From Styela clava (taxonomy: Eukaryota; Chordata; Ascidiacea; Stolidobranchia; Styelidae), in assembly GCF_964204865.1 (NCBI RefSeq), contig NC_135255.1, positions 13,669,135-13,733,134 on the forward strand: a DNA stretch of 64,000 nt, read 5' to 3'. Positions 1,620 to 54,900 of this stretch are shown here, in pieces. Position numbers and translations under genes: made by a program. Below the pieces are notes generated by a model. It saw only the letters and a list, made by a program, of their open reading frames with translations, was not told the DNA's origin and searched no databases. Every line of letters begins with the position of its first letter. The first letter of the stretch is position 1.

Positions 1620-2422
1620 TATGTCATGCTGTTTCTTATTCTTCTATAAGCTACTATTTTATTTTATAATCTTTTGTGTTTTTCATATGTTTTATTGCGT
1701 CTGTGTTAATAAACTTTCAGAAAAAAAGTCTTTCCGAAATGAAGAAAAGTAATAAATGTGTAGTAGTTCAGGTGGAAATAATTTACCAAATTACTATTTA
1801 CTTGAAATATGAATATTAAAAAATGTTGGGATTAAAATAAATACGAATACTACAGACCCTAGTCACCTTTTACGAAAATCATCGATCCAAAATATCAATG
1901 ATTGCTGAAATATTATGTTGCAATTTATTATTGCAATTTCAAATATGATTGTGTTGCCCTAATTATTATCTGTCTCTGGTTTTATCTATCAAAAACGACT
2001 GTCATGTCTTTACCTTGGCGTTAATTACCGGTAGCTACAATTATTTAAAAAAAATTTATTTGTGAAATCACTTTCGTTTACCTATTACTATTGACTTTAT
2101 TTAAATGTTTCTACTGACATCCCTTTGCACTGATTTTTAATGAGAATATGTAGGGTCACATGCACTCACTTTAAAGTATAGGAACTCGCTTTTAATCAAT
2201 GTTACGGACTAACAGTGAACTGCTGAAACCATGCGAATTTTGATATTGCATTGCGCAATAATAAATTAAAGTTGGGGCGTGAACCTGTTCTAGTTCTTAC
2301 TATTTCCACATCTGGTGAAATGCTCACAACTTCGCTTTTGGCAAACACCAATAATAGTGAATTCATTCATAGAATACTCATTATCCCTTTTCATTATTTC
2401 AGACCTTAATTTATGTATAACT
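1620..2422. other. spacer between DDX28 and FKBPL genes
   Basis: AT-rich spacer. It holds the DDX28 polyadenylation signals AATAAA at 1708-1713 and 1751-1756. Near its right end is a pyrimidine-rich run ending in AG at 2402, just before the FKBPL-like start codon. I see no coding or RNA gene. Confidence 0.6.
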
Positions 2423-3223
2423 ATGTTTGAAATTACGAAAACAGTTCTGGAGAAAAGCACTGAGACTGAATATCCTTTGCTGACATCAGAATGTGAACTA
2501 ACCATCAAGGACTTTAGCAGTTTTCCTAATGCCTGCACGGATGAAGACATTTTTAAAAATTTTGGAATAAATGCAAATATTCGGAATGTATTTTCCTGTT
2601 GTCAAGTGAAGTATTATTATTCTGCAATTCTTTGTGAATGTGTGGAAAACATGAAAAGATCTGAAGTATCAGAATTTGATATCAATTTTATGAAAACTGA
2701 CTTCGACAAGCCGAAAAGTTTCAAATTTACACTCACATTGCATTCTATATCATCAGGAAAAGATTTTCATGATTTATCACTTGAAGAAAGGATAAATTTA
2801 TCAGAGAATTGGAAGGTTTCTGGAAATTCCTTATTTGTTGAAGGAAACATTTATATGGCTGGATACTGGTATAGCAGATCATTGAAATCGCTCTTATTAT
2901 GCTGTACCGATGATATGGAAAGTCCCATAAAAGAAAAGTATAAAAAATTAGTTGGTCAATGCCGAATCAATCTAGCAGCAGTACAGTTAAAGAACCATTT
3001 ATATGATCATGTTATTTCAAACTGTTCTCAAGCTTTATATATTGATTCAAAAATGATTAAAGCCTTATACAGAAGAGCTCAAGCCTATTATGCAGAAGGA
3101 AAAATGGAAAATGCAATGAAAGATTTAAAACAAGCTTTAAAAATTGAACCTAAAAATAGTTCTATTCGAAAACTCATTACGCAAATTAGACAGAATACAA
3201 TTGTAACAGCACATGCAGTATAA
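2423..3223 (+). CDS. FKBPL: FKBPL-like TPR co-chaperone
   Basis: Frame of 266 residues counted from the ATG at 2423; the open frame extends upstream to 2315, but a typical 3' splice site (pyrimidine run then AG) ends at 2402, so those 36 codons are probably intron or outron. The N-terminal half (about 1-110) aligns loosely with the degenerate FKBP fold of FKBPL. The C-terminal half has three TPR units (about 128-161, 178-211, 212-245), with the family-like stretches INLAAVQL, IKALYRRAQA and LKQALKIEPKN. FKBPL is known as an Hsp90-binding co-chaperone linked to p21 stability, and it lacks peptidyl-prolyl isomerase activity. No isomerase active-site residues can be recognised here either. Other FKBP/AIP-type TPR proteins are the alternative. 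An AATAAA lies at 3301-3306. Confidence 0.75.
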   Translation: MFEITKTVLEKSTETEYPLLTSECELTIKDFSSFPNACTDEDIFKNFGINANIRNVFSCCQVKYYYSAILCECVENMKRSEVSEFDINFMKTDFDKPKSFKFTLTLHSISSGKDFHDLSLEERINLSENWKVSGNSLFVEGNIYMAGYWYSRSLKSLLLCCTDDMESPIKEKYKKLVGQCRINLAAVQLKNHLYDHVISNCSQALYIDSKMIKALYRRAQAYYAEGKMENAMKDLKQALKIEPKNSSIRKLITQIRQNTIVTAHAV

Positions 3224-9800: not shown

Positions 9801-12800
9801 TCACTGCATGATTAAACACTGTTTCTATTCATTTTCTTTTATTTAGGCAACTCTTGTGGACTGGTCTGATAATCTCAATTTAGAATTGATAATTACTACT
9901 GGAGGAACAGGATTAGGACCAAGAGACATCACCCCAGAAGCAACTGCTGCCGTCATTGAAAGAGAAACTCCTGGATTTACGATTGCAATAATAACAGCAT
10001 CACTTAAAGTAACCACAGATGCAATGGTGACAAGGTACGTTATAGTCATTTTTGGACATGAGGTATATGCATTCTTTACTTACATGTTTTGTGTGGTCCT
10101 GCATACCCTAGGAATTGATGGATAGCATAAGATGTTTCCTTCAAATACTGCACCAGGGAAAGGCACATGGACACTTTCATGTTATAGTTGAAAAATACTT
10201 GCTCAAAGAAGTCTGGCCATGGTCAGTTTGTGCGCATCAGTACTTGAAACCAATTATAACAAAGTATAACTCTTGCCAGTATATTAACAGGCTCAACATA
10301 TTATCACTTGTATAATGATGACAAATATAGTCCTAACGTTAATTTTCTTCTCCTTGTATGTTATGTTTTAAATACAAGATGCATTTATTTATATTTTTAT
10401 TTAGACTGAAGAGTGGAATTAGAGGAAAAACTCTGATCATTAATCTGCCAGGAAGCAAGAAAGCATCATCAGTGAGTGTTACAGTTAATCCTCTTAAAAC
10501 TGTTGAATGTTATTGGCCATAATTATTTTAACACCTTACCAGATTAATTTACTAAATTCTAGACCAACAAAGTTTCACAATTTCTGTGATGCCAGAAACC
10601 GAACAAGACTCAAAACAGCCTACTGTAATATATTAAATGAACTATTGCTTAAATAGAAATGCGTACATTTTTTAATAGGAATGTTTGAAAGTTGTTCTTC
10701 CTGCAATTCCACATGCAATAGAATGTCTGCAAGATGTCAAAGCCAGGATTTGCATTTGTACCTCCGTTGATGATTACCCGTAAGTACTTTTTATACGAGC
10801 AAGATCGCGAGAGCCCAAAACTGGTGAAAAGGTTACTAATATAAGAGATGTAACCTACTAATGCGTAAGATTTAATTTATATATATTTTTTTAATATGTT
10901 AGTAGGTAACAGACATTTTTTTTAAAAGATATTTTTTTCATTCCTTTTCTATAGACAGTAGGTTGACTAGATTCCATAATTATTTACTTTGAGGCCTGAT
11001 GCAGAATCCTAACTGCCAGTATTTTTATTCCTTTTCAGAGACGTTGAGGAAATCAAGAAAAATAGTAACGATGCACATGTGATCAAACCAACAATAGTTA
11101 TTCAAACTAACAGTGGAAGTCTGGAACCTCAAGGGCATTCACAATTCCAATCCCAACATCATGTGGTAAGCAAAGCAAGCATGCAAAACATAGATAACTT
11201 ATATAAATTTTTTATGCAAACTATCGTAAGCAGCTATCGCAGGATGTCCACTTACAGTTACAGCAGAGTTCAGGTTAATTAAGGTAAAAGCCTTCACTTT
11301 ATTAATGCAAGGATGCAAGACTATGATAACCAAATTATTATGTTATTTAAAGATGTGTTAAAATAATATTGCGTTTAATAAATTAATGAGTATTCACAGA
11401 GATGCAAAAAATCAAAGAAAAAGATGATTAAAATGAGTATCATTTTACATACATATCACTGCTGTTCTAATCCAGTGGTTCCCAACATGGGCTTCCATTA
11501 TCTCCAGGAGTCCACAGACAGATTTTGATGGGTTTGTGCGCTTTGAATGTATAGTTTAAAAACGGTCAATGTCACGTCAACAAGTGCTTGGTACTGTGTC
11601 GTGTCTATGCTAGGGGTTTCTGAAATGAACAACTTTAATGATCTTTTGAATTTGAGGTGACTTTTTGTGCACCGATTTCACAGACCATAAGGCGTACTGT
11701 CAATAAATTGCTTAGATTCGATTTTTATTCATACATAAGGCGTGCCGGGCTATAAAATGCAATTGTTTTTAAAGCAATACTGGTACTAGTTTTGAGTGTA
11801 TGCAATAAGCATGAAGTAGCCTACCTAATCCATACGTTGAGCACACCAGTTTACACGGCACATGATCGATTTTTGAGAAAAATAGGATTCAAATTACGCC
11901 TTGGGGTCTGTTAAATACGGTACTTTAATGAAAAACATTGCTTCTAGTGGAGACAACATATATATATAACAGTAAGCGATGGTTTCATTTAATAAAGGGG
12001 TTCGTAGCTTACAAGCATATCATCAAATAGTCCATCGCACTTTAAATTGAAAATCACTGTTTTATTCTGTCATAATATCGGTACTCCCGAAGTATGTGAA
12101 CCAAGATGGCGGTCACCGGAACATAGGATATGTATCAGATTAGGGTTAGGCTATAATTTTATTCCAATTTTAGTTCTATTACGAGTTTGGGGACTAGCCA
12201 AGTGACTAGTATTTGTACTTGGAATATGGCCTAACCTTAACCTGGTACACATACTATGTTTCGGTTTCCGCCATCTTGATTCACATACTTCGGGAGTACC
12301 ATAATATCTACATTATAATTTCCGATGAATTTGTTATTTTAAGATTTAATTGAGATCGGTAATTTTATATTATAGCTCATAAAATCCAAGAAGTTCTTCA
12401 ATTTTTCGTAATCAAGTATATATACATATTTATAAATATACCCACAGGGCATGTGAAACGAGACTGCAGTATTTTGCCTTTTATATAATGTTTTCCGTTA
12501 TGTAACATTATTTTCATTGGCCATTGTCAAACGTGAATATAGACAGGTTATATAATATTCACAATGATTTTTTTCATTGGAAGTTCAAGGAAAAATTATG
12601 TAATAAAACTAAAAATTATTGTTTACAAATTTATTATATCTGTTCGGTCAAATTTTTTCAGTTCATATAAATTTGCTCAAAGCGGGATCGCGAGCTTTCA
12701 ACTAAAAGACAAAAATTACTGCTAGAAAGAGTTGTAAAGACTGGTAATGGATCAAAAACATGGCGTATGCTTATGAGGCTTGCAAACACAGATAGATGTG

Positions 12801-15800
12801 TTTTTTGTTGTTGATAATGTACAAATAAATAGATCAATATTATTGAATGTTGGGTTTCTAGAATGTCAACGGCAAAAAGTAAAGATAGTACTTCCTGCTT
12901 CATTTTTAAGACACGTATAATCAATTATCATTTAGAATTTCGAATGTAACGTATTTGTACGGATTCTAAGTGAACTGTCGATAAATTGCTTAGATTGGGT
13001 TTTTATTCATACATAAGGCACAACTGGTAAAGATTTTGAATGTAGGCAGTAAAGCATAAAGCACTACCTGATTCATTCAGTGGGCGCATGATCGATTTTG
13101 GCGCACGATCAAAGCGGTAAAATACAGTATCTGAATTGATAAATCCATGACCGCGCACTGTCTTCCTCTAACCTAACCCAATGACCAGATTCGTCTACAG
13201 TACCATATAGCTGATGTATTTTTGAGGATTTTGAATATCATGTTTTTATGTTTGTTGATTTTAAATCTATGATTTTTCTTAGAGTCTCCCTGAAAGAACG
13301 TTGATCAACTTTTCTGAAGAAGATTTGGCTGATGCTGACGTGGACTTGGAGAGTCTTCTGTCAAATGTATTTTTATAAATTAATAATTTTTGCAAAAAAT
13401 AAGATCATTGTTAAGTTAAATATGAGGATATCACTCTTATAGATATACTCAATATAAAGATCACTCATCTTATACTCTACTATGAGATGATGTCATGTGA
13501 GACTCACTACTTATTCTTGCTGACTTATAATCAAGATGAGAAACTATGAATATTTTTTAAGAGTATTTTAATCCTTTATATGCACAAGCGGAAGTTGATG
13601 CTTAGATAGTAAACTACTATCTTTTTAGTAATTTAGTTATATTTCAGATTCTCTCATCTGCTTTTCTATGCCCTAAATAAATATGAAATTATATTTTGTT
13701 AAATATAGTTTATCTTTATTTCAAACCTTGCTACTTTTTTCGCAGAATGCTACAAACTCTTCAACTGAAATCATATCGAAAAAAGAAGGTACAATTTTTA
13801 ATTGATATTTGGTTGTTCTAATATTTTTTGTTTTACGTAACAATACCCTGAGATTTTATTAATTTTAATATGAATCGGGCTTTACAGAATCATATTTGAC
13901 CGCTAATATATGGTTATATATAATAATATGGTTGTCTGTATTTTAATGGTTTGTTATTTTAAACTTGGATCCCAACTATTTTTAACGATAATACATGTAA
14001 AATCCGTGTTCTCTCATGACTTCAACCTAATTTAGATTACCCAGTAAGAATTGAGTGATTGTGATGACTGATGATGCACTAAAACCAGTGGTGGTATTCA
14101 GGGGCTTTAGCGCCCTAGTTCTTTTTTAGGTGTTAGACTACAGCAACATTTGATTTGCACTGTATCTGTTGACGAGTGTTATATTTTGCGTTTCGAAACT
14201 TATAATTTGACTTTTATTTAAGGCATGTCATGTCAATGTAGCTCATGTAGTGGCTTTTGAATCTCGCCACTGACTCTATCTGACTGATAATGAGACCTTT
14301 ACTAACAAAATGTTGATTAAAAAACTGTCTCGGTTTACAGAGTTACCCGCAACTTTTTTCAGCCTATTATCCAAGAAAATTTATGTCTCTCTTTGTTTCT
14401 AGAGCAGGAATTCCCACCCTTAAGTGTACAAGGAGCTCTTGACACTGTTTTAAATACAACAGCAACACTCAAATCTGAAGAAGTAAGTTTGGCAGGGGCT
14501 TTTGGGAGGATTTTAGCTGAAGATGTGAGTGTTATACAACAAAACCAAACCCAAACTGCCGGGAGTAGTGGTTATGCACTTGCAGGTAAGTTATTCATAT
14601 TTGTGATTAATTCTGTCTGCCAGAGAAAATGACCATCACTAATTACCAACCAGTATATCAGTAACAATGATGTAATTTGATACTGCAAAATTTACTTAGC
14701 TTGCGTTAGAGCAGGGTGCCTCAAATGGGGCTCTCAGCGCCCTAGGGGCCAGCCATAAGCAAAGGCCTTCACTAGCATGGTTACATACCCAATCTTACGT
14801 ATTAATTGGTAATCGGCGGTTAAACTTTAAATTGTTGTTTTCATTATAAGGTCATAGACTTCCCAGTTGAAATTCTCTGACACGCCAGTTTGTTGGCTTT
14901 TTATTATAAAATGTGGCAATTGAAGTATCTGATGAAATATCATTCAAAGCAAAACTACCATATATTACGGCCAATAGGGCGCACTTTTTCCAATCTTATT
15001 TTTCTCTCAAAAACCGATCGTGCGTCTTTTGAGCCGGTGCACCTATTGTATGGACCAGGTAGTGCTTTATTCAGTTTATTGCATACACTCAAAATTAGTA
15101 CTGGACACTGGTCTATTGTTTTATATACAAACTGCCGTCTTTAACTTCCTAAAAATCGATGTGGGCTCAATGGGCCTTGTATGAATCTCAAAAGTATGAA
15201 TGTATGAATCTCAAAAGCTCAATCTAAGCAGCTTATTGACAGTGTGCCATATGATTCGTAAAATACATTATTTTTCTGAAAAGCATCCAGGCAACCCTCC
15301 CCCTCCCCCCTCATGGGGTCCAGATCTTGAGAGTCTTTGGAGGAAAGTTTGAGAACCACTGCACTAAGGCATAGTGACGGAGTGTATCCAAATTTAACAT
15401 TATTTCTTATGTATATTGCACACATTATCAAAGAGTATAGAAAATTAAAACTACCATACCATTTTGTAATAAGACATAAAGTGGTATATTCGACTGTCAA
15501 TAAAGCTCGCATTTCCAATGTTGTCCAGAATATCCTGAATACATAATTAATACAAATATCTATTTTTCTAGGTTCAGTATTGGCTGGAGAGATTCGAAAC
15601 ATCAATACAAAGGGAGTTTCGATTAATTATGACCAAGCGAGGCAAGTATCAGCTGGATCTCGTCTTCCGAGAGGAACAAACACAGTTGTGTCAGTTCGTG
15701 ATACCAGACTATTGGTTGGAGTAAGTTTAAATAATTTTTCTAATGACATCAATGGTATTGGTACTATAATGAGGATAGGTTACATATGCAGGCTATGGAA

Positions 15801-18800
15801 AGATGGATCTACTAGCATCACAGAATTCAAATTTTTTTGTACAACAAATTCTTATATTAAATAATTGGGATAATTAATATTATAGAATGACTTTGTTTTA
15901 GATACTGATAGATTACTGATATGATTGGAACTTTGCACCCCAAGTAAAATTATACATAAATAAAAAACAATAAGATAGGGAAAATTGGAATAAAATTATG
16001 GCCTAACCCTAACCTGGTACACATACTACGTTCCGGTGTCCGCCATCTTGATTCACATACTTCGGGAGTACCAGCTACAATATTTACATTAATAAGAAAG
16101 AATTATTAAGCGACAGAAAGTTAATCAGGCAGTATAATCATGATGTACCAACAGTTGAGCATTCAAAATCAAACATGGCAGAAGCGCCAATATTCCATTT
16201 ATCTTCTTGTTTTTGCAGAATAAGATTCAAGTTATTCAAAATGTGAGATCAGGTCAAGGAGTGCAGAATTCTCAGCTAAGTAACAGCCTTCGACCTTTGG
16301 TAAAGAAAGGAACCAAACTAGGACCGGCGAAAATTGGACAACTCACCACAAAAGGCATAACATCCGTCAGAACCTACAAAAATCCTGTGGTTGCTGTACT
16401 ATCAGTTGGAAGACAGGTACCATAGTAATTCTATCTCCAATCTCATTTCTATATTTTTTGTTTATAGTTGTCTGACAACTCCCTTTAGTTGGGAATATCA
16501 AGTGTATTTGCAGTGCAGAACATTAATCACTCATTGGTACCATTACATATATTCAAACAGTGCACGAGGACACACATTTCCAACTTGGTTTCCGAAGTAT
16601 ATTTCCTTACACTCCTAAGCTTCTTGAACAAAAAGCTCTAAATTTAGACAAAAAACTCAACTCTTAATGACAAGCAAATACATTTTTATTTTTGAAAAGT
16701 TAGTCTAATTTTTTCCCTAAATTCACATTCCTTTTTTAAATACTCATGTAAAAGGATATTGAAGCTACAAATCACATAACAATACAATCGTCTCTTCGTC
16801 AACATTCGGTTGTTCCATTGGACATTGGCATCATATCAGAAGAAAAAGAAATTTTATTTGCATCTATCAGCCAAGCTATAGCAAAAGGTAAGATGACCAG
16901 ATAAGTTTCTATACCAGTTGTTTGCAAAAAACGTGTTCAAAAACAGGGTGTTCATAATGTCCAATTTTATTATTTTGTTACAAAGTCAGTTAGCAATATA
17001 TTTTCTGTTTGTTTCATTTTATTCAGTGTCAATTCAAGTTTTTTTTTTCTTTATACACCTTTATTATATCATATGCCCACCATTAAATGGATTAGACGAA
17101 TCTGAAACGAACATTACAACAAATTACTGGTTAACTAACCATTCCTAAACCTGACATGAGCTGGTAACAAGGCGAGAGGCGTATTTCATCATATGGTTTG
17201 GCTATCTTATTAGCTTTACTCTCCCCTGTGATAAATTTCCTAGAGCATTCGTAGCAAATGCTAATTCTATCTCACCGAAGAAATGTTGCGTCGCTTTATT
17301 TATTCTGCAGATATTATAATGGACTTCTTCGGAACTTACTCCTCTAAAAAAATATTTATTCCCGAAGTTTTTATTCCACGAACCTCAGTTGAATGGGTAA
17401 CTCATCACCGCATACCTGTTTTCCTGATCGTATTAACAAACAACTGCTTCAAATCTAGCGACATTCGGTACTTACTAACTCGCAATACCCCACTATAAGT
17501 CTCAGTAGGTATTGGCACTTTAGTGGTCACCTGCTGCTTCCGCATTCTTTGAGAAAATTTGCTTATAGAAAAATGTACAAACCATTATAAACATCTGGCA
17601 TTACATGTATTTTCATGTGTGGCATAGCTGAGCAATGGTGGGGTTGTCTGCTATTTGGTTATTTTGATACAAAACCTTTTACATCCAGCTGATGTTATTG
17701 TTATTGGAAGCAAATCAGAGGCCAGCAGAGATGTTATTAGATCACTGATTAGGAATAAATTTGAAGCCATTGTTCATTTCGGGACTGTTTCGATGCTTCC
17801 GTGGTAAGTATAAAAGTTGTTGCTAGAGTTCGTTCTCGGTAGGAAATTTGTTTTTAAATCAGTGGTACACTCCGCAGACCTTCCTGCAAGACCGCCAGTC
17901 TGCAAAATTAGTTCTGCAATTTCCCAGTCCACAAAAAAAGTTGAGAACTACTGTTTTAAATGCTTATCCTGTACACAAGGTCTTGGTTTTTCTAAAAGTT
18001 TGAATTTCTAGGGTACCGAGCTATTATGCTACAACGAGATATGAAACTGACAGAAAATTATTCTTTGTCCTACCAGGTGAGTGATGCATAATAATTTCTC
18101 ATGTCGACTTGGCTTGCTCACCATCACTCAGGGTGTGATAGATTTGAGTAGGCGATGCCGAACTGGAAAGATTACGGTTCATCCAAACTTTATTAGATCC
18201 TTACCTAGTTGATTGTGCAAAATGGAAGATGTATGAGCACATCGCAGTAATTGTAACTTTGTGGTGTTCATATTTCCAGCGTATTGACCATTATGACATT
18301 TCCATTATTTTCTCAAGCGGGTCTCATCAAACTGGGGGTTCAAAAAGGCTCAATGGGGTCATTGGTTACCCATAATTGTCAGAACTAGCTATACTCGCTC
18401 TTCTTCTTTTATCCTTCTAATAGTTTTCGACACTAACTTAAACATCGATCAAACCGGAATCAAGCCAAGGATCGATCTTTTGTGTGACAATATTCACCTC
18501 GGTCTCATTAAAGTTCCTGAGGGCCGCAAAAAAAAAAAATTGTCTTTTTAGAATACAATTATGAAGCTTGTGTATAAGGGGTGCATCTTGCAAAAGTACA
18601 GTGGTATACTATACCTTAAACGACATGCTATTTACAAGGAAAAATCATTATGTACGAATTGAACTAATCATAATTATCTTGTTTATTAAGAGTGTCCTTT
18701 GGCAAGTATTCTGTGCACATTGTATATTGTTCCTGCTTTGAGAAAATTGGGAGGTCTTGAAAATACAAAGAATACTGTAATCAAAGCTAAGGTATTGATC

Positions 18801-34588: not shown

Positions 34589-37500
34589 ATGCAGTCTAGC
34601 GTTGTCTACAGTCTGACAATATGTGCTATTCTACTAACAGCGATTTTAATAACCATCATCGTCGTGCTGGTGCCTGAATCGGATACACGTATGTTATTTG
34701 TATTTTTATTATAATGTAAACATTTGATGTGTCGTGAGTGTTAGCGCTCGCTTTTAAATGTAGTAATATGCAAGCCCTTACCGGCGTGGTATTCGAAATC
34801 TCGAATACATTTATATTTTTGAGATTTGCTCACATATTTGAAGAATTATCTCAGATACTTCCGAACGATAATTCCACGAAAAGTAGCGTGCGATTTTCTT
34901 CTGTCATACTGTACCGCCAATTGTTCTAGTTAGTTATAAACTGACTTTATTTTAGTTGCGGCTCCTCCGTCATGCTCTGCTTATCCTTGCGACGCAACGT
35001 GTGACATGAAGGTATCGCCATGCAATGGTCTCGTATTTGAAGAAAACTTTGATACATTCGACTTGCAAAGATGGCAACACGAAATCACAATGTCTGGAGG
35101 AGGAAACTGGGAATTTCAATTTTACACCAACAATAGGACAAACAGTTACGTCCGTGACAACACGCTCTTCATCAAACCGGTAAAATTTTCAAACAACGAC
35201 CATACTTGTCGTATTTTGAATAGATTTCGTAACGGTTCGCTGTAATTCAGTCGTAACGTAGAAAACAAATGTATAAATCGAACTGAACATCCATTGTCAT
35301 AGTAATTTAGGGCGAAAGTATTACATTCATAAGACTGCTCTTTATTTTTTATTTACTTTGAAGTTTTAAATATTTTTCAATTCTGACATTGTTCTAATAT
35401 TCACTACTATTGTTTTTACAAATTCATTCGACTCATTTTTTTATTATATTTTCGATTCTCTGTAGATTTAGGTTCTATAGATATAGACAGATCGTAGACA
35501 CTATTGCAACCTTCAATACAAACAAAAATGTTTAGACACTGACCGCAGATCACTACGGAGAATCGTTTTTGTCGTCTGGCGTTCTTGATCTATGGGGAGG
35601 AAGTCCTGCCGATTTCTGCACTGGAAATGCATTTTGGGGTTGTCAACGTACCGGAACTCCAGATAACTACATCAACCCTGTACAATCAGCCAGGTAAAAT
35701 ATAGAATACATTTTTCAAATTCTGATTGGACGATACATGATCCGCGACGACGTCTAACCCTCTGATGTCACGTATTTTGATGATTACTAGTGATAGCATG
35801 GGGTGTGAAATTCAATAAAGCAACCTCGTTTTTTGTTCGCTATCTACCCCATGGGGTGGGATAAATTTCGCATGTGCCATATTTGACCCTCCATGCATTC
35901 ACGGAAGAACGTCACTATAGCTTTTTTTAGGAAGCAATTACAGGCAAAACGAGTATAAAGTATGAAAATAAACAATTATGACTTTTAGTAACCACTTTTG
36001 TATATTTTGTCTAGCCTGAGATGTCCAAATCAGATTCAAATTGTTTGAAATTATATTTTCAGCAATATGTTGATCGAAAATAATCTAAAATTAGCAAATC
36101 TGAACAATTTGAATATATATTAGAAATTAAAAAGAATTTATTCAAGTGAATGCTATCGATGAAATTCCCCCAAAACAGTTTTGAGATTGTCTCATGCAAA
36201 GATATACACCACATTTTGCACAGTTCATGTTGCTTTTCATCGGACATCCCCTCTTTCTGCAATGGATTCTATCACCAATGCCCTTCTTCATCGAAACGCG
36301 CATCCATTGGTGGAAGAATACTACTTGCAGCTTTTTTTGGTGTTGATGGGAGATCACTATCAATACTTGGTCGACCACGGCAAAGTCCTAACTTGGCACT
36401 ATGTACTGACATGTAGAGATTTCAGTGCGGAAATCTTTTATTGGAAGCGGATTACAAGAGTTGTACTCTATTGTAAAAAAAGCCATGAATTGACAATAAT
36501 TAATAGGTACCGAGATCTAAATCTAAAAACAGTGTTTCTTCACGCCTATGCACTTATTTCAGTATTCAAGTACATTTTAATTTGCGTTCAAACTATCATG
36601 TCATAACCAAAATGACTTAATAATATTAAAAAACTAACAACAACCAACTACTAAACCTTGGTTTAACCTCGCAGGTGACAATTTAGCAGCTAGTCTACTG
36701 GCTTAGAAGTCAAATGGGGTTTAAAAATTTTACTTATCAAAATGTCGAAACTAATTGCCAAGGGCTACAGGAAACAACCCAGATTTTTTTGATGGCTGGA
36801 TTTGAGAATAACCGAGTAATTAAATACTAATATCTAAATAAATACTTATATAAACGGTATTCCGAACTAAAAATACTCAATTACTGAACATATGAAAACC
36901 TTCACGCCAGTGAATCAAGAAAACACAGCCTGAGCACTTAAAATTTTATTCCCCCAAATGCATGATGTGCCAAATTTGTCACACGCATTACCACCTAAAT
37001 ATTTCGAAATGCTGAAGAAATAGTTAAAAACTGCTAAGCTAGGCCTCTTCCTTGCTAATACCCCCACTATTACGAATTATCTCCTATTATCTCCTCCGTT
37101 TATTGCACAATAGAGAGAATGCGTTCCAGATGCAAAGAATCTACGTTACTCAATAGCATAACCAAGTGGACCAATATAAAAAACAACACGTGACCCAAAA
37201 GAGATGTTTTGAATTTGACCCGCCATGCATTAAAGCGCTAATAATATGCGGGAGTATTGACACGGAATAATAGCGTGTTAAATTAGTCAAATTCATTTGT
37301 TCTCATATATGGGCGCGATTGATATGTGCATTTTTTTACTCAAAATGTCATTTTACTTGCAATCGCACGAATCTTATATATTCAGTAGCGTAATAGACAT
37401 TTCATATTCAGAATACGTTCTGTGAATTCATTTGCGATCCAATACGGACGAATTGAAGTTGTGGCTAAGATGCCTAGTGGGGACTGGTTGTGGCCTGCGA

Positions 37501-40321
37501 TATGGATGTTACCCAGGTGAGAATTTAAAACATTTATATATGTTATTTTAACACTTGAGGAGAGTGCTCGTGTTTGAACTTTGAACTTTTTGAAAGTCTT
37601 TATATCTACTTCGACAACCATTACAAAATCGATGGTCATATGAGCATGCTTGAGACGTATGCCTGTAGACGCTCAATGCGAGACTGAGATGGGTTTTAAA
37701 ATATGACCCAAGTATCAACGTCACACTGGCAGATATTAGAAATCTTGAATTTGTCACCAAAGGTGCATCAACTTTGGATTTGGAGCTGGAGCAGTAATGG
37801 CTCAGGATTTGGTGCTGTAGTAATTTTTTTCCCCCACTTCACAGTCTCGATGGAAAATATGGAGGTTAAACTATGAATATATATAATTGTATATCCTCAA
37901 TTTTTGAGGACTACTGGCATGATAAGTAGAAAATCAAAATTCACACTTCAATTTGAAATGAAATTTTCCAATTGACGTTGGCCCTATATATTCGCGTAGT
38001 TATTGACTGTTTTTCATAAAGTTCAACCTTGTATGAATAATGCAATTACCTAACCACTCACGTTTTCATTGCCAAAAGTCAATAGGCATGCAATTCAACG
38101 TTGAAATGTTTTATCTATATCCACACTAATCTAAGTCTAAATAAATAAATACAAGAGAGTTATGAATACATAAAAACAAATACCCTCTATATCGGTGCAT
38201 AAATTGCGGACCATAATTAAAAAACATTCTAGAACTCAAGAAAGGTTTTCTAAATAGAAATATAGTAAAGTAACACACAATATCATTATGTAATTTTAAT
38301 AAACCCTATAACGAGTTAACCAAATTAAAAATGAGGCCTGTTGCTTTGGAACGACCTGATGTCAAATTTGAATTTACTTTAACAGAGACAATAGGTACGG
38401 AGGATGGCCAGCATCTGGAGAGATAGACATTATAGAATCAAGAGGTGAGTGAGTCCAAGCTTTTACGTTATAATCCCAAATACGTTTTTCAATTTATTCG
38501 ATTGCCATCTCACTATTTTGATATTATTGTTCGTTAATATTTAGTCATTCAAACAGGGGTTGCATTTTCTCTTACTTGGAAATACACGTCACATGATAAT
38601 CCGAATGAAAGATACATATCATGAGGTACATAACGGGCGTTCATTTCACACTTATGTTACACTAATGATTCTAATTTTGTCATCATTCTTTGTTTTTTAG
38701 GAAATATAAATCTCACAGATGCTGAAGGCGTTTCTAAAGGTCGTGACAATATGGGTATGACTCTACATTGGGGACCTTACTTTCCACTGAACGGATATCC
38801 AAAGACAACAATCGAAAGGTCTGTCATAAGCAGGAATATAAATTTTCGATAATGATTCGGTTTCTGTGGGACTAACTACTCATCCTTCTAAACGAAACGT
38901 TACAGAAATATATTTTAGCGTGCAGCAAGACTCTTGAATCACTTAGAATAAATTTTCGATTTATCGTTCTTTATTAGACGAAATCCTAATCTATAGACAC
39001 ACAGTTTAAGCATTCCACATTAGCTTCTTTCTTCTTTTCGTACTCAATGGCGTCCAATAATTTAATTAATGTTCGAAATTCGAATCTGGTTGCGTTATAA
39101 ATTTGCACCTAAATTATACATCAAAGAGCTTACAGAGTTTAATTGAATCTTCTCATCTTCGTGATATTTTATTCCAAGTTTTCTTAACGTTATGTAAAGA
39201 CGAGCAAAATTAAAAAATATAGAGAAAATATGAGCTGAATCATTAATTCCATTTCATTTATATACTACAATAATATATATCTGGCACAGTCATCCGGCTT
39301 CGGGAACGTACGCATCGGCCTTTCACACATGGGTTGTTGATTGGACAGCAGAATATATAGATTTGTTTGTGGATGGTAAATTGCTGCGAAGAGTTGATCC
39401 GGGACCTGGAGGATTTTTCGATTATGGTGAATTTGAAAAAGAAGCACCGGGTATCGATAATCCATGGGCGAATTCTAACAACAAAATGACACCATTTGAT
39501 CAAGAAGTAAGTTTTGGAAGTAATTTAACATGATAATAAAACATTCAGTTATTGCTCGTTTGTTTAGATTGTTTAATTATGGTTTATTCAGTATTTTCAA
39601 CAATTATTTCTAGTTCTATATTCTCATAAATGTGGCTGTCGGCGGCACCAATGGATTTTTCCCAGATTCTTGGATAAATGCACCTCGCGAAAAGCCATGG
39701 AAAAATGATTCACCAACGGCAATGAAAGATTTTTGGTTGAAAAAAGACGAATGGTGAGTAATTAAGTCATTCCCAATAATACCAAAATGTTGAAGAGCCT
39801 CAATGAATGTAATTTTCCTACCCGGAAACAATGAAGCGTGGGAGTATTCAGTTGTTAGTTATTAATTAATAAAAAAAAACAGAGATGTAGAAAAGTTAGA
39901 AAGAAGTGAGTTAAATAGATATGAAACAGCGATAGTTCGCGGGACCAATTCCTCTACGCGAATGTCATCGAAAAAGTCAGAGACAATTGAGATAAAAAAG
40001 AAATTTTTCGGAATCTATCTTTAGGTCTCAAATGCACAATATTTTTTCTGGTTTCCCGTATAGTGAATATCGAGAATTCCAATATTTTTGGCTCATCGTG
40101 ATCGTGACGAGTATATATATAAGTGTAGTAATTGTCAAAAGCTTGATGTTTAGTAAAAACTAAAAAAAAAATTAATTTGTCTATTAAAGTTAAATCAAAA
40201 TGTATCGCCCCTATTAAATTTGTTTTTCTTTTACTATAGGTATCCATCATGGCAGCCAGACGTTGACAATGGTGAGAACGCTGCTATGCAAGTCAGAAGT
40301 ATTAAAGTTTGGGCTAAATAA
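34589..40321 (+). CDS. membrane-anchored GH16 beta-1,3-glucanase / LGBP-like protein
   Basis: Nine exons, 400 residues: 34589-34688, 34956-35179, 35536-35693, 37412-37516, 38386-38444, 38701-38818, 39290-39506, 39614-39753, 40240-40321. Residues about 8-30 form one hydrophobic segment with no obvious cleavage site, so either a type II anchor or a signal peptide. A short Cys-rich stretch (about 38-56) follows, then a GH16 domain starting near GLVFEENFD. It carries the family blocks GGGNWEFQFYTNN, ADHYGESFLSSG and WPAIWMLP, and the active-site motif GEIDIIES at 207-214 (E208, D210, E213 all present). An enzyme acting on beta-1,3-glucan is therefore likely, unlike insect GNBPs that lost these residues. 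The N-terminal CBM39 of arthropod BGRPs is absent. The gene lies 741 bp upstream of the GBA gene, which shares its first-exon type. AATAAA at 40317 and 40530. Confidence 0.93.
36142..36382 (-). pseudogene. piggyBac transposase C-terminal relic
   Basis: On the minus strand one frame reads a Pro/Ser-rich stretch ending RFDEEGHW before a stop. An overlapping frame continues with HCRKRGCPMKSNMNCAKCGVYLC and then NCF before a stop at 36142. This order (Pro/Ser-rich linker, R-F/Y-D-G-H-W, then a CxxC-type zinc finger ending LC...NCF) is the C-terminus of piggyBac/PGBD transposases. A frameshift separates the two parts and the catalytic domain is missing. It lies in intron 3 of the GH16 gene, antisense. 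Confidence 0.75.
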
Positions 40322-41062
40322 ATATGAAGTCGCTCCACCAGATAATTCATTTGTAAGTAATAATTGATGTAAATGTCAACAACAACACACTAGTCGGGGA
40401 TCGAAGACTACGCTGTTTCGGACGTCTCAACTTCATTTCACTGTAATCTTGGAAATCAACAAATGTTGTTGTAAATTACCTCAGAAACTTTTTCCCGATT
40501 ATACATATTTACAAATGTATATAAATGGTAATAAATTATAAGTAAATACAGCATTCAATTTTTTTTCATATTTTTGTTGTTAAAAGTTTCCAGTGCAGCA
40601 TTACAATTAGTCTTAATGATTTCTGGATATTTGATATCTGGATTTCTGATATCCAATAAAAGAATCAGTCAACTAGAAAACTTGAGAAGTTGTATTAGAC
40701 ACTGAAGCGAAAGGTACATAAAATGTCTATTTTAGAACCGTTGAAAATGTATGTACGGAGACTCGGGGAGTGCATTCTTATTCGTAAACCTTGTGTTGGG
40801 CTTCCATGATTCGTTAAGGCGGAAGTATATATATCATCATTCTATGAACAGTGTCAGTCAATAATCCTCATTTAGTCTATAATCAACCATGATGAAATAA
40901 ATCAAACAATATTTAGTGGATAATTTCGATTAATAATTGACAGAAATTATGCAACTTATCCGTAATGTTTCATTACACATAGCGATAAAAATTAAAACAT
41001 GATGAGTACGTGATAGGAAGACGATATTTTAGTGTGGAGTTCAACGATAATAGAAGCGAAGA
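40322..41062. other. spacer between GH16 and GBA genes
   Basis: 741-bp spacer between two same-strand glycosidase genes. It contains the GH16 polyadenylation signals and the presumed GBA promoter. No gene or clear repeat seen. Confidence 0.55.
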
Positions 41063-44000
41063 ATGAAGTCAGTCGTGGGATATAGCTTAATATTGAGCAG
41101 CATTGTGATTGCAGGAGTTGTTTCGTTGCTGCTTGTATTGTTGATGCCTTCATCTATTCCACGTATGTTATTTTGTATGGTAATTTTTTTGAATATTTGT
41201 GAAATAATGTTCGATACATATTTCGGTGGGGAAAGTCACGTAGGCTATTTATGACAAGTCATATCATTCGTTTTATCGGAAGCATATATATATTTTCTAC
41301 AATAAGTCAAAGAAGAAATTTAAACCATGCCAACCCCAAATTTAGATGAATGTGGTTGGCGATAATCACCTGAAGCTCTCTTCATTGGCATCGCCAGCAA
41401 TAGAATGAAAATAGCATTGAAGGTACACTGGAAGTAACCGTACACAAAAATTAATATTTTGGAATATTTATTTTTAAATGGGAAATTCACAAGCTGGAAA
41501 CCCAATTTTTTCGATAATTTCCAACATTCCGAGAAATAGTTTAGAGGTTCAGTCTGAGCATCATAATGAAAGGTCTTAAAATCAAGAATAGCCCACGAGA
41601 GTGGCAATGTTATCTGCTTAAGTCATTGCTTACGCCGAATTGCCTTCGCTTGCTTTTAGAACAACGTCGAACATGTGAGCCGAAATATTTTGATCAAGAT
41701 CGTATGGTTTGTGTATGTAACTCAACATATTGCGATACACTCGATCCGCTTCCAGATTCATATCCTGAAGGATATATAATTATTTATACATCGAGTCAGA
41801 GTGGACTTCGTTTCAACGAGACATCGAATCAATTTCGCTCTCTATCGCAAAGTGATGTAGGTAAGGAATTAAATATTATTTGAATTGTTCATTTCCTAAC
41901 ATAGTCTATATATATGAGAGATGCACACAAATGTGGACACAAGGTCAAATGACTTAACCAGGGATGTGCAACAAGCGACCCGCGGGCCACAACTGACCCG
42001 ACAGGCCCTTTAGTGTAGCCCGTATGAACACCTAAATTTTTTCTCATCTAGCATAAAATCGTAATCCGACAGTTTATGTTAAGAACTGTTATTAACAAGC
42101 TATGCGAAAACTTGAAATTTCAATTGTTTCGCTAAAATGTTAAATAACTAAAATTTTGCATTGTGAGAATATTTCAATTCATTCAACAAGACCCCGAACA
42201 ACAACAATTAATCAAGTGCTCTTTTCCAGCCGCAGAACATTCGGCGTTTGTGTTTTATGAAGAGTTTTATCCTGGTTTTATCCCTTTTTGTGTAAATATG
42301 TATGTTATTGTTTCATTCAGCTACAATAACAGTCAATTCTGGTAAACGGTTGCAGACAATTAAAGGCTTCGGCGGTGCATTCACGGATGCTGCTGGAATA
42401 AATATTGCAAGCTTACCTCAACAGGCTCAAGAGAATTTATTGAGGTCATATTTTTCACCAGAGGGTAAGTTTATTGATATTTATGTACACCATAGGCTAC
42501 GATCCTTTTGTGTGGTTAGAATTCAAAAGCTCGCAAACAGTATATGTATATAAATCATTTTGAACGGTTTAAAAAACGTGTATTGCTTGTTGATTTCAAT
42601 TATAAATGTCAGTTTTCATAATTTTATGTATTATCTCTTGGTATTATAACATTTCTGTAACAAGGTCACTTCAACTTTTCCAGGTATCGAATATAACATG
42701 GGTCGAATTCCTATAGCAAGTTGTGATTTTTCAACTCGAGGATACACGTACAATGATTTCGAGAATGATTTCGCCCTAACAAATTTTTCGTTAGCAAGTG
42801 AAGATTTTGTTTACAAAGTAATTTCATTTAAATAAGTTGATGTTAAATTTATAATCGACTGCTGTTGAAAATCTTTCGTTTCTTTACATCTTCGAAGATA
42901 CCATACATAAAGAAGGCCGTGGCAATGAATAAAAGAAAGATGTCTTTTTATGCCAGCCCTTGGACAGCACCCGCTTGGATGAAAACAAACAATGACCTTA
43001 TCGGAAAGGGAAGTTTGAAAGGGGAACCAGGTGGACCATACTATCACACTTGGGCTCTGTATTTTGCAAGGTATTGGGACCTCCTGAAGTATGCGCACCG
43101 AGATGGCGCACAACCTGAACTCAGGTTGTGTACCAGGTTAGGGTTCAGGTTGTGCGACATTTTAGTGCGCATACTTCAGGAGTACCAGGTATTGTTCATT
43201 TTAGTCAGTCGAGAATGGGGATAAGCTTACACTTCTTTCAAACTAATAGATCCTATTTATGAAAAACTAACATTTCGATCCACGTGTTTATTATTATATT
43301 TCAAGTGTACAGTAATTGAAATCGCTACAATAACTTCTTTCTGTAATTATGTAATAGATTCATCGAACACGTTCTGTCTTGATTTTATGTATTATATAGA
43401 TTTATAGAAGAATATACAAAGAACGGTGTAGACATCTGGGGATTAACAGCGCAAAATGAACCAAGTGCTGGGAATATTCAGAATTTTCCATTTCAGTGCA
43501 TGGGATTCAGTGATATTCAGCAGAGAGACTTCATAAAACTAGATTTGGTAATAAATTAGTTCGTATTCTTTTGTATACTGTTAATAAAACTATAAAAGAA
43601 AATACTGACATACAATTTCTCCCATTTTATTGAGTAGGGTCCAACACTAGAAAACCGAGGTCACGGCGACGTAACACTGATGATAATGGATGATCAAAGA
43701 TTGTTGTTACCGGAATGGCCAAAGGTTGTCCTGAATGATTCAGTCGTGAACGACTATGTTGACGGAATAGCAATTCATTGGTAAACTTAGTTTATAAATA
43801 TCTGTATTTAATAAATACAGTTTTATTTGAATTAAAAGAATTCTATCTTGATCGACCGATTTTCGGAAGAATAGACCTCGCAAACAATTTTTCGCGTTGT
43901 GGAAGCCACTTTATCTTGCGTGTTATAGGCAAGCTTGACTTATTTCGAAGCACGTGTTACTAATTACTAGTGACTTCACATTAGTTGTAGCTTGCAACTC

Positions 44001-45360
44001 TTTTAGTGATATGTTTTTCACTTATAATTCTTTGGAACTTCTTTCGAGAAACTAGTATAGCATATAGCAGTATGTATATATATAATCATTCCAACAATAT
44101 AAAATTCATTTGTCACGACACCACTTTACGTTTAATTAATAAATGGCAGTGAAATTTTCCTTTTTTTTCATCCCCAGGTATATGGATTTCATGGTGCCAC
44201 CACAACGACTAACGGAAACCCATGAATTGTTTCCTGATAAATTTATGCTTGCATCGGAGGCATGTGCAGGGGCAAATCCTTTAGCAAATAAAGGAGTGGT
44301 GATGGGCAGTTGGGAACGTGGCGAACGCTACAGTGACGATATTATTGAGGCAAGTTCATATTTCTATTATTACTTATCGATCTTTAGATCGGTAAGTATG
44401 TTGATAGGTATTTGTCTGTTAGATGCACGCGATATCTCAAGAAGGCGTGGTTGAATCTGCTCCAAATTTTGCATGTGCAATCATCATATCCCGGACCAGA
44501 AGCCTATGTCGTATATATATTAGCGAGTTATTACTTAATTAGGGATGGGACACGTGGTGTCACTATAGAGTCATGAATCGAAACCGCAGTTTCGATCGAT
44601 AAGTCTTCGGTCTCCGACCGATATTCTCGTTTATATTTTGAAAAGATTTCTGACTCTATAATAATTTTAAGTGTGAATTTGCAATCAGAATCAAGGTTTA
44701 TATATGTGGAGCGCCAAATAAAGTATGTGGGAATGAGGACATCGCAAAACAATATTACAAATTTACAGGATATAACAAACTACGTGAGTGGTTGGGTGGA
44801 CTGGAACATTGCTCTTGATATGAGAGGGGGACCAAACTGGGTGAGAAACTTCGTTGATTCTCCAATCATCGTCAACAAAGAATCCTACGAGTTTTACAAA
44901 CAGCCCATGTTTTATCACATGGGTCATTTCAGGTTGTATATATATATATATTTATTTTCGTTGTAATTTATATTCCAATATTCAACATGAAACTTGGCGA
45001 AAATTAGTCGAACTATACGCTATATATGAATAATATAACAACAAATCCTATGCAATTGAAACATTTTCCCCATATGACATTTCTTGTGTATTTTGAGTTG
45101 CGTCATAATTGATTATTTTTAATTTTAGCAAATTCGTCCCCGAAGGCTCAGTAAGGATTGAAAGCTTGGCGAATCAACTTCCATTTAATGTCAAACATGT
45201 TGCGTTTTTGAATCCAAATACTAACCAAATATCGTTAGTCGTTTTAAACAAGTCAGAGAACGATATCATCATTACAGTTCGAGACTCGGCTTCTGGAGAA
45301 GTAGAAGACGTTTTGGAGAAAAGATCTATCAAAACATATGTTTGGTCACTTTATGTATGA
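41063..45360 (+). CDS. GBA: lysosomal-type glucosylceramidase (GH30, acid beta-glucosidase)
   Basis: Ten exons, 536 residues: 41063-41162, 41660-41860, 42321-42464, 42684-42817, 42898-43070, 43400-43547, 43638-43780, 44178-44349, 44769-44932, 45129-45360. It aligns with human GBA1 end to end. A hydrophobic leader (about 6-29) is followed by a Cys-rich start with [10 protein letters not shown], where the conserved first N-glycosylation site is kept. Then come [23 protein letters not shown] and GKGSLKG. The acid/base is E271 in AQNEPSAG and the nucleophile E375 in LASEACAG, 104 residues apart (105 in human). The C-terminal beta domain ends KTYVWSLYV. The reaction is hydrolysis of glucosylceramide to glucose and ceramide in the lysosome with saposin C. 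Intron 5 starts at a MITE-duplicated donor and intron 8 has a GC donor. AATAAA at 45368-45373. Confidence 0.95.
41957..42030. repeat. CG-rich hAT-terminus-like fragment in GBA intron 2
   Basis: AGGGATGTGCAACAAGCGAC followed by CCGCGGGCCACAACTGACCC, similar in style to the fragment at 25502. No matching opposite end was found. Confidence 0.35.
43077..43186. mobile_element. GGTACTCC-family MITE inserted at a GBA splice donor
   Basis: 110-bp element with ends GGACCTCCTGAAGTATGCGC and GCGCATACTTCAGGAGTACC, and inner TGTACCAGGTTAGGGTT as in the family. Target duplication AGGTATTG is perfect: 43069-43076 and 43187-43194. The duplicated octamer spans the last two bases of GBA exon 5 and the first six of intron 5. 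Confidence 0.92.
44350..44351 (+). other. non-canonical GC splice donor (GBA intron 8)
   Basis: Exon 8 must end at GAG (44349) to join GATATAACA at 44769 in frame, giving ...[14 protein letters not shown]... as in GBA. The intron therefore starts GCAAGTT, the classic context of GC-AG introns. Confidence 0.8.
44374..44634 (+). repeat. dispersed 200-300 bp repeat, copy 3
   Basis: Starts TTATCGATCTTTAGATCGGT and AAGTATGTTGATAGGTATTT, and ends CCGACCGATATTCTCGTTT. Same family as 23385-23599 and 28299-28600. In GBA intron 8, only 24 bp after the GC donor. Confidence 0.85.
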
Positions 45361-51900: not shown

Positions 51901-54900
51901 TAGAAGTAACTTTTTTTTAGTTTGACTTATTCAGGGAGAAAATGCACAGAATGCAACCCTCATATGAATGCACCATTGCATAAATATGCCTTTCTCAAAT
52001 TCGATTTGTTCACTTAGCTAGTTGAATTGTGATGCAGAATAGTGGCAAAAGCCAAAAACCTCTTATCAAGAAATACGAATACTGTATAATTTGAATTCCC
52101 GTGATATATATTTAGTTCATTATATCTACTTCAATGTTCACTACATTAACTTGCTATAAATAGAGATCTATTTCTGTGAAAGTTAGCATCTGAAATGGTA
52201 TTTTCAGAATGTTGCTGCATGTATCGGTATACCTGATGACTTCACATATTATTTTGGTCTTTATTTAATGAAATCTGAAAAAGATGGAAAGTTTTCGAGT
52301 AAGTATAGTCATATCCTGTTGATCATGTGTAATAATTATAATAGTTTATACTTTTTCGCAGCTTTACTCCGATTACTAATATGTAAAAACCAACTATTTT
52401 TGAAGTTTCGAAATCTTTTCGTTTCGGTATTGCCTACCCAATGAGGTTTGGGAATCAAATCCAAGATTTTCAATATGTGATGCTGATACCTGTCCCTTTA
52501 ACAACAACTGTTCCATTGTGTCTACAAAAATGGTTGTGAATCACACATCTCGGGTTCAAATTCAAGCCTCTCCACGTCTCCCAGAGCAGAGTGTAGAAAA
52601 ATGGGTAGTCAATGCCAACTTGGAATGATTCCTGCCTTCCCAAATAATAGCATCTTCTTTTATATCATTAGATATCAGTGCTTGCTTGTACTGGGCCTTG
52701 TGCAGAGCGAAAGGCATGATTTAACATCGCATAAAATATTTGGCTGCCCTAATAGTTACTTCGAGGAGAAAAAAAGATTTCTGGTCACTTTCCAATCTGA
52801 GCTATTGGTCACTGAGAGGTCAATAATGGCAGCATCGTTGACTAATTTGTCTATAAAGTAGTCATCATTGCAGTGAGCTTGCCTTGTCTTATGAATTTCA
52901 ATTTAAGCTTTAAAGAAATCATTGCTAATGAGTTAGATCTGATTGATTATTGCTTGTTTGTTTATCCGGTATTCTTCAACATATCAGTGAGAAATTTATA
53001 TCGACTCGTATTTACTTTTGGCAGTTGTACGAAAACTACAAGACTTTGAATCTCCCTATATATCCATGAAAGCATTGACAGAACGGAGATCATATAAAAT
53101 AACAATCAGAAAAGCATACTGGGATCAAGCATTTGATGACGATATTTTATCAGATACAACAACATTTAATCTTCTGCATGTACAGGTGAGAAAATTACAA
53201 TTTGTGATCTTGTAGTTCTGATTCCGAAAGATTTGACATTGATATTTTTTTGTGATGTTTTGTACCTAAGCTTTAAAGAGAATGAGGCTGGTCATTTCGT
53301 TTTTATCCTGTTCATTCTGGTTTCTGTTTTTTCATTACTACGCTCCTTTGCCTAAATGGATCTAATTACTCATATTTTTTTAGAAATACCTGTATTGCCT
53401 ATAACAGTATACCGGAAGCCTACATTATATATAGCCCACAATAAGGCTGATGTCTGTAAATATTATTTTGGTTAGATAATTATTTGTATTTCTATTTGAA
53501 GTAAAGTTGTGAAAACATTTTTAAATTGTGAAAAATAACCAGGGCTTAATGTGATATTGTAGACTATAAATATTTGGTTGATGAGAGGAAAATTTTCAAA
53601 AAACTATTTTGTTTATAACATTTTTATTTCCCCTGTAGGCTCTCAGCGATGTTGAAATGGGCTGGACAATATGTCCGAAAGATAATTTACAGAGATTAGA
53701 AAGTTTGCAAAATAGAGGATCAAAGAGAGAGGTGGGTTTTTTGATTTGTGAACTTTTTATACTTTTTTGGCCTTTTTAAATCCTATTCAGTATATCAGAT
53801 TTCGCACTTCCTTGTTGAAAACATTCTTTAGATTAACTTTCTATGGTGTCAGCAACTTGTTCTCCCTGACAGCTCATTAATTACATTCAGAGTAAGAGGT
53901 TCTTTCTATTAACATTATGATTAATAACCTCTTTTAAAAGCCTATTTTTCCTCTAACTTCTTCAAACTTTTTTTATCATGCACAGCCAAATATTTTTGCG
54001 ACATCCAGAAACTAAAGTAAAAATTATTAAGTGAAATTTAACAATACAGCAAGAATTAAAAAATTTAATAAAATACCTTTAATGAGACCTGTGTGCTCAC
54101 ATATTCTCGTGCAAAAGCTCGAATCTCGGCTTTATTTAGGTGATGTTGGGTGATTTAGGTGATGTTTAGGTGATAATTTGTTTTAACACAATCAGTGTCG
54201 AAAAGGATTTACAGCAACCCACATTGAGACCCAAAGGGGTGCCGGGATCCTCGGTTTGAAGTGCCCTGTTTTAGATAATTATGAAATCAAGTCACTAAAA
54301 GTAGGTCCATACAATAGAGAAAAGAATGTTTATTATTTTTCTTGATATTGTTTTGTTATAAACAATAGAAAATTTCATGGCTAGTTTATGTATTGTTTTT
54401 GCTTTAACATTTTAATATCATTTTCTAATAAATGTTCAATTATGTGAAAAGTAAATATATTTAATTTATTTTAATTTTATGATAACAAAAAGTCTTCATT
54501 TCTATTCATACTAATTTCATGCTGTGTCTTTATCTAACTTATGATTTTTTAATGATATTAGTTACGGATGTTTTGTGAATGATTATCAGGTGGTGAGACT
54601 GAGAGTGATTGTTTGTAAGTGGATCATGTTCCACTGTAACTAATTTGGGAAACAATGATGATAATGATATTAATTTATATGGCTGTTAGTGCAATAACAT
54701 TGTTTTTATAGTATTGACTAAATTAATTTAGTTTTACGATGCTGCATATTTATCTAATATTGTAATTGTGATAGTTTTTTCTTAAGTAATAAATCCTATA
54801 TTATTGCGCTGTTCCATAATAAAATATCATTTTTATTCACTTTACTCATTTTTTTCTTTTCTAATTCGGTTATTTGCTGGATTTTAAATAATATCATATT

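Follow-up and report, generated by a model that had tools for sequence, protein, structure and literature searches.

Two adjacent genes on the forward strand of the window, the 64-kb stretch of DNA analysed here, are predicted to encode glycosidases. The upstream gene (GH16) is complete as modelled, with 400 amino acids from nine exons. Its exon 1 (34589-34688) is followed by a 267-nt intron 1 (34689-34955) that begins with GTATGTTATTT and ends with TTTTAG, and exons 2-9 (34956-40321: 34956-35179, 35536-35693, 37412-37516, 38386-38444, 38701-38818, 39290-39506, 39614-39753 and 40240-40321) encode a beta-glucanase-like body. In a profile search this body matches PF00722 at 46 bits, and beta-1,3-glucanase structures also match; its SGEIDIIES stretch is what we take to be the GH16 ExDxxE motif. 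The downstream gene (GBA) is likewise complete, with 536 amino acids from ten exons: exon 1 (41063-41162), a 497-nt intron 1 of phase 1 (41163-41659) that also starts with GTATGTTATTT and ends with TTTTAG, and exons 2-10 (41660-45360: 41660-41860, 42321-42464, 42684-42817, 42898-43070, 43400-43547, 43638-43780, 44178-44349, 44769-44932 and 45129-45360), which encode an acid glucosylceramidase body. The latter matches PF02055 at 494 bits, plus PF17189, as a GH30 TIM-barrel with its C-terminal domain, and HMMER aligns the model to human GBA (PDB chain 6t13_A) with E 3.4e-168. NEPSAG and ASEAC of the model align to the human enzyme and are presumably the catalytic acid and nucleophile motifs. The profile matches bear out the assertion of an earlier note on this DNA that the two bodies are unrelated, GH16 (PF00722) on the one side and GH30 (PF02055) on the other.

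Each first exon is a predicted exon of 100 nt that ends in phase 1 and encodes a leader, MQSSVVYSLTICAILLTAILITIIVVLVPESDT in GH16 and one of 33 residues in GBA; the lengths, phases, coordinates and sequences are all as the earlier note had given them. Each ATG is preceded by an in-frame stop, at a distance of 3 nt in GH16 and of 9 nt in GBA, and either gene's exon 1 joins either gene's exon 2 in frame. A GBA start that dispenses with exon 1 was considered at the ATG at 41566, which is in frame to exon 2 through the end of intron 1. It was rejected and the exon 1 model kept, because the leader from 41566 is weakly hydrophobic (best 19-residue Kyte-Doolittle mean of 0.77, versus 2.94 for GBA exon 1) and because the acceptor is preceded by a tract with pyrimidines at 14/17 positions. 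The human GBA leader, which we take to be 39 residues from the first ATG (the numbering of the 6t13_A alignment is consistent with this), differs from the GBA leader of the window in that HMMER aligns only its last ~20 residues, and those loosely.

In both genes a leader exon is bounded by a phase-1 intron, an arrangement common in secreted proteins. By alignment, GBA intron 1 lies within one codon of the human GBA intron at c.115/116, and the accessible text of PMC4043325 places that phase-1 intron after c.115 (c.115+1); human GBA1, the same enzyme, is a comparable case whose phase-1 intron lies no more than a codon away from the leader/mature boundary seen here. Phase-1 introns at the ends of signal peptides are, moreover, a common and general feature of secreted proteins, according to the available portions of PMC1626468 and PMC5308243. 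Since the boundary intron is also present in human GBA and the phase bias is general, we reject the agreement of the two first introns in phase and position as evidence of shuffling or of common descent; the exon layout of the two leaders is ordinary. The same facts favour coincidence and convergence, in which two independent leaders of about 20 hydrophobic residues, each followed by the usual phase-1 boundary intron, coincide by chance in length, in some of their polar residues and in the donor site, the pair having been picked by scanning many gene pairs. We put the chance of this at slightly under one half.

Against coincidence stands the agreement of the two leaders in register. Eleven of their 33 residues are identical, in keeping with the first estimate of about a third. 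When residues were shuffled within the n/h/c regions, the identity was reached with P = 0.019 (0.009 when the regions were split in a second way) and the BLOSUM62 score with P = 0.0007; a shuffle of the whole leader gave P = 0.0018 for identity. Codons shuffled within the same regions gave 32.3 +/- 4.0 identical nucleotides, versus the 47 of 96 observed (P = 2.7e-4), and the likeness is also high near the start codon (12/21 nt in codons 2-8). Among 17,808 stop-free six-frame positions the two leaders are each other's best non-self ungapped match, with a score of 54, the next unrelated matches scoring 29 for the GH16 leader and 22 for the GBA leader. A further null was drawn from 211 open frames in five 50-kb stretches of E. 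coli, whose membrane segments are an imperfect yardstick for these leaders. Its result is carried by 30 transmembrane segments, among whose 429 pairs none reaches the BLOSUM score of the leaders and two reach their identity count; the few N-terminal leaders (seven, giving 21 pairs) include no pair that reaches either. From within the window, 13 hydrophobic ATG segments give only 77 pairs; the true pair is one of these, and the rest are less hydrophobic. Judged from these comparisons, the likeness in register is above composition-matched chance, and somewhat more than composition alone would be expected to give.

The second line of evidence lies at the splice donor. Both first introns do begin with GTATGTTATTT, as the earlier note had observed, and a scan of both strands of the window finds this 11-mer only at 34689 and 41163; in shuffled sequence it occurs 0.20 times on average, with at least two copies in 2 of 100 shuffles. 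Together with the preceding CAC of exon 1 it makes 14 identical nucleotides across the junction, although this match alone is weak (blastn-short E = 0.13, with another pair equal). The most similar stretch covers the end of exon 1 and the start of intron 1, at 34665-34699 in GH16 and 41139-41173 in GBA (both +), and its 27 of 35 identities (-24 to +11 of the donor) rank first among 136 donor pairs, the next having 20. This first place, like that among the six-frame positions, argues against coincidence. When each exon 1 was extended by 50 nt of its intron and the two were aligned locally, the score was attained by 0 of 300 resampled sequences and by 0 of 5,084 other (overlapping) 150-mers, the runner-up among the latter being close under one scoring scheme (32 versus 33). 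Likeness peaks at about -24 to +16 around the donor and falls along the intron, from 14/20 (+1 to +20) to 8/20 (+11 to +30) and 3/20 (+31 to +50); the 14/20 of the first 20 bases is shared by two other donor pairs among the 136.

Such a peak, and an intron start that is identical despite saturated synonymous sites, would suit a short cis element common to the two donors, consisting of CAC, GTATGTTATTT and, after a one-base gap, GTAT, with the remainder being ordinary leader likeness. It might be a first-intron site for splicing or for a transcription factor, or else a fragment of some dispersed repeat. We consider this highly improbable, given that the 11-mer is found nowhere else in the window on either strand and that the exons are also alike near the start codon.

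Comparisons made out of register, and those of the flanking DNA, were weak or null, and these favour coincidence. Local alignment of exon 1 alone was no better than for resampled sequence (P = 0.79 and 0.54), and no similarity was detected between the 600 nt upstream of the two genes (P 0.43, 0.27) or between their first introns from +12 onward (P 0.61, 0.45). In the comparison of the two introns that the earlier note had proposed, only the first ~16 bases match, with no similarity deeper in. With tblastn each leader finds its partner at E = 0.058 and its next match at 0.080 (GH16 leader) or 0.21 (GBA leader). At E up to 10, with both leaders and both proteins as queries, the window yields, besides the exons of the two genes themselves and the partner leader, only weak hits at scattered places, the best of which has E = 0.080; none of these is a convincing further copy of the leader. 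Searches of viral contigs, a collection poor for animal genes, gave no pattern match for GBA and, for GH16, a single stretch that matched a pattern and is no relative.

In the DNA of the leaders, the excess identity is concentrated at codon position 2 (24/33, with 12 and 14 at positions 1 and 3), as hydrophobic codons give, and positions 1 and 3 alone are weakly alike (P = 0.027); the share of transitions is not significant (P = 0.13). The ten shared residues other than Met use the same codon at two, versus 2.74 expected from codon usage alone, a likeness no greater than chance: synonymous sites are saturated and hold no trace of synonymous ancestry. This lack of similarity in flanks, intron and synonymous sites is expected if a copying event was old and fatal if it was recent. 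A recent duplication of the leader exon was rejected on the absence of similarity upstream (600 nt) and in intron 1 past +11, and on synonymous saturation, and appears very unlikely. Because flanking DNA is unlike and synonymous sites are saturated, any copy of the leader exon would be old.

The earlier note had claimed that one exon was duplicated or shuffled to the adjacent gene. What survives of that claim is the in-register likeness, which beats composition-matched nulls; the layout is no evidence for it, and a recent copy is very unlikely. We give about an even chance that the two exons represent an old local copy of one leader exon, and regard their common descent as plausible, as a candidate. 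Under the old-copy model, a phase-1 leader exon with its splice donor would have been copied locally long ago, by tandem duplication or gene conversion. The boundary intron is probably ancestral in GBA, which makes GBA the likelier source and the upstream GH16 gene the likelier recipient. Each exon 1 would encode a hydrophobic ER-targeting signal or signal anchor, and, if the genes are expressed as modelled, splicing in phase 1 would join it to an unrelated mature glycosidase for entry into the secretory pathway. The persistent identity of the first 11 intron bases is not accounted for by an old copy alone. The equal exon length, the adjacency of the genes and their common strand have been counted in favour of an old copy. 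It is far less probable that the leaders form a portable, splice-swappable set of phase-1 signal-anchor exon plus donor that is copied between glycosidase genes; in that case GH16 exon 1 could be spliced in frame to GBA exon 2, and would supply GBA with a second promoter and N-terminus.

The targeting conferred by the two leaders may not be the same. A type II signal-anchored enzyme would keep its leader uncleaved, as an anchor in the membrane. The -3/-1 rule describes the residues that precede signal-peptide cleavage sites, and a scan by this rule past the hydrophobic core finds SDT/LA, TLA/AP and SCS/AY in GH16 (TLA/AP being a possible site just beyond the exon junction) and no site in GBA. 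Since GH16 has a possible cleavage site and GBA has none, even the membrane fate of the two proteins may differ. The proposal that both enzymes have the same targeting holds for predicted ER entry, which secreted and lysosomal enzymes need anyway, and does not extend to their possible cleavage sites.

Among the matches listed from open-licence papers, in a search that did not query the pair by name, no title concerned the GH16/GBA pair, and comparison is with other systems. At the human WFDC/semenogelin/SPINT locus (20q13.1), for which the available part of PMC3209443 discusses exon shuffling, a signal-peptide first exon is likewise kept in sequence and size among related genes of one locus while the exon for the secreted product differs or is unrelated. 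There, however, whole three-exon genes are held to be homologous, with a conserved third exon and a fast-evolving body exon, whereas GH16 and GBA are large multi-exon enzymes of unrelated families with at most the leader exon in common. The signal-sequence gene family of Schistosoma japonicum, as described in the accessible sections of PMC3434034, also carries a leader stretch in different genes by duplication at the DNA level, but its copies are spread over 34 genome contigs, are flanked by repeats and have core promoters that resemble one another; the window has only two adjacent copies, and their flanks are without similarity. A further case is that in the excerpted text of PMC5308243, where exon shuffling is proposed for unrelated mature proteins with a phase-1-bounded leader exon. 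The argument there rests on intron phase, to which GH16 and GBA add sequence likeness in register.

Phase-1 introns at the ends of signal peptides have been read either as relics of leader-exon shuffling or as insertions at proto-splice sites (PMC1626468, in its accessible part). The GH16/GBA pair is a candidate for leader-exon transfer and not yet proof of it. A clear, datable transfer of a leader exon between adjacent unrelated enzymes would directly support the shuffling view.

The two glycosidase genes under study lie 741 nt apart on the plus strand, in animal-type DNA that is rich in introns and 34% G+C across the window. The upstream gene (34589-40321, nine exons, 400 aa) encodes a beta-glucanase-like GH16 enzyme that matches PF00722 (46 bits) as well as beta-1,3-glucanase structures, and keeps the EIDIIE motif. 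The downstream gene (41063-45360, ten exons, 536 aa) is plainly GBA, the GH30 acid glucosylceramidase (human GBA, E = 3.4e-168; PF02055, 494 bits). Both models read open from start to stop; in each, exon 1 is a prediction guided only by splice signals, reading frame and a hydrophobic leader. In-frame stops occur 3 nt (GH16) and 9 nt (GBA) upstream of exon 1 and fix the N-termini in that exon. As modelled, GBA intron 8 has a GC donor at 44350 (GAG|GCAAGT), and in intron 5 the stretch 43090-43190 (+) contains short copies of CAACCTGAAC/CAGGTTGTG, some direct and some inverted. Translation from an ATG in GBA intron 1 (41566-41659, +) would run across the acceptor and into exon 2 in frame, yielding a different N-terminus that lacks a strong signal.

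Exon 1 of GH16 (34589-34688) and exon 1 of GBA (41063-41162) both have, as the earlier note described, a length of exactly 100 nt and a phase-1 end; they agree at 11 of 33 leader residues in register, and both are followed by an intron beginning GTATGTTATTT, an 11-mer with no further occurrence on either strand of the window. This in-register likeness exceeds chance against nulls that preserve the n/h/c layout of the leader, with region boundaries of our own choosing, both for residue identity (P = 0.019, or 0.009 with a second split) and for BLOSUM score (P = 0.0007). Codon shuffling within regions gave an expectation of 32.3 +/- 4.0 identical bases, against 47 of 96 observed (P = 2.7e-4). 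In a scan of all six frames, comprising 17,808 33-codon positions free of stops, the leaders are each other's best non-self match (score 54); the next-best scores are 29 for GH16 and, for GBA, 25 (the GH16 leader shifted one codon) and then 22. E. coli transmembrane segments, compared in 429 pairs, reached the identity twice and the BLOSUM score never. From -24 to +11 the donor regions agree at 27 of 35 positions, first of the 136 pairs formed by the 17 donors of both genes (next 20; mean 12.4, sd 2.9). The junction-spanning local alignment scores higher than every one of the 5,084 other overlapping 150-mers. For GH16 it reaches 33 in one scoring scheme, where the best competitor has 32, and 23 in the second, where the best has 19; for GBA the corresponding values are 33 against 28 and 23 against 16.

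Local alignment of the two genes is carried by this junction and not by exon 1 alone, which does not score above resampled sequence (P = 0.79 and 0.54). The first 20 intron bases agree at 14, a count that two other donor pairs equal. The leader match is weak once register is no longer imposed. In tblastn the partner leader scores E = 0.058, with unrelated matches at 0.080 (GH16 leader) and 0.21 (GBA leader), and the 14-nt junction match (blastn-short E = 0.13) is level with another pair. Restricting the comparison to codon positions 1 and 3 gives P = 0.027, and the transition share has P = 0.13. The same codon is used at just 2 of the ten non-Met residues that the leaders share, against 2.74 expected from codon usage. 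No similarity was found between the genes in the 600 nt upstream or in intron 1 from +12 (P 0.27-0.61). Whole intron 1 gave P = 0.11 and 0.045; for the final 120 nt of the introns P was 0.025 in one scoring scheme and 0.82 in the other, a result taken as noise.

IVS2+1G>A, a splice mutation in human GBA, corresponds to c.115+1G>A (PMC4043325); because 115 = 3 x 38 + 1, the human intron splits codon 39 after its first base. Residue 39 aligns with Gln35 of the window GBA in an alignment to human chain 6t13_A, whose 536 residues are assumed to follow precursor numbering, and GBA intron 1 splits Gln34, one codon off and in the same phase. Since the human intron lies this close, the GBA leader boundary would most simply be ancestral, not imported from GH16. 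Phase-1 introns are generally in excess at signal-peptide ends, according to PMC1626468 and PMC5308243. The phase and place of intron 1 are ordinary given this excess and the human boundary, and the phase shared by GH16 and GBA should not carry evidential weight.

Each leader has about 20 hydrophobic residues (mean Kyte-Doolittle over residues 9-28, 3.13 and 2.89), a stretch long enough for a signal anchor, and exon 1 of either gene reads in frame into exon 2 of either. Both leaders would take their enzyme into the ER. The same targeting proposed earlier comes down to ER entry. Past the core, a simple -3/-1 scan finds possible cleavage sites in GH16, the most canonical being TLA|AP after residue 35, just past the exon junction, and none in GBA.

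GH16 intron 3 contains an open frame (36145-36387, -) with a cysteine-rich C-terminal part (CRKRGCPMKSNMNCAKCGVYLC) and a Pfam match, below threshold, to the C-terminal domain of Tc5 transposase (14.8 bits, cut-off 27.4; E 0.037), possibly a transposon remnant. A 141-aa frame on the opposite strand (36181-36606, +) overlaps it, and the frame 36163-36603 of the same intron has no Pfam match. Elsewhere in the window lie a DEAD-box helicase in a single open frame of 535 aa (12-1619, +; PF00270, PF00271), which resembles DDX28, and a TPR protein (2315-3223, +) with a sub-threshold FKBP-like N-terminal match. Within 9847-15861 (+), a MoCF_biosynth match at 9847-10122 is accompanied by MoeA_N matches below threshold at 14321-14629 and 15547-15861, consistent with a gephyrin gene. 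Downstream of GBA, an exon of a further gene (52991-53212, +) matches the SNX17/27/31 FERM F1-lobe (43.3 bits) and, below threshold, the F2-lobe.

The earlier note saw in exon 1 a signal-anchor exon duplicated or shuffled to an adjacent gene; the in-register likeness argues for this, whereas the phase says nothing and the upstream DNA, the intron past +11 and the codon choice are unlike, so that any such copying must be old. The identical intron start is equally odd under an old copy and under chance, unless constraint preserves it. We put an old local copy at an even chance and coincidence at slightly less than that, and consider a donor-site element common to both genes very improbable; these odds hinge mainly on the frequency of such copies and the number of gene pairs inspected. 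Because the GBA intron appears ancestral, copying would probably have run from GBA to GH16. The two nearest precedents are the WFDC/semenogelin locus (PMC3209443) and a Schistosoma signal-sequence family (PMC3434034). If the old local copy is true, it would be a further case of a known phenomenon, here between full-size enzymes that belong to two unrelated families.
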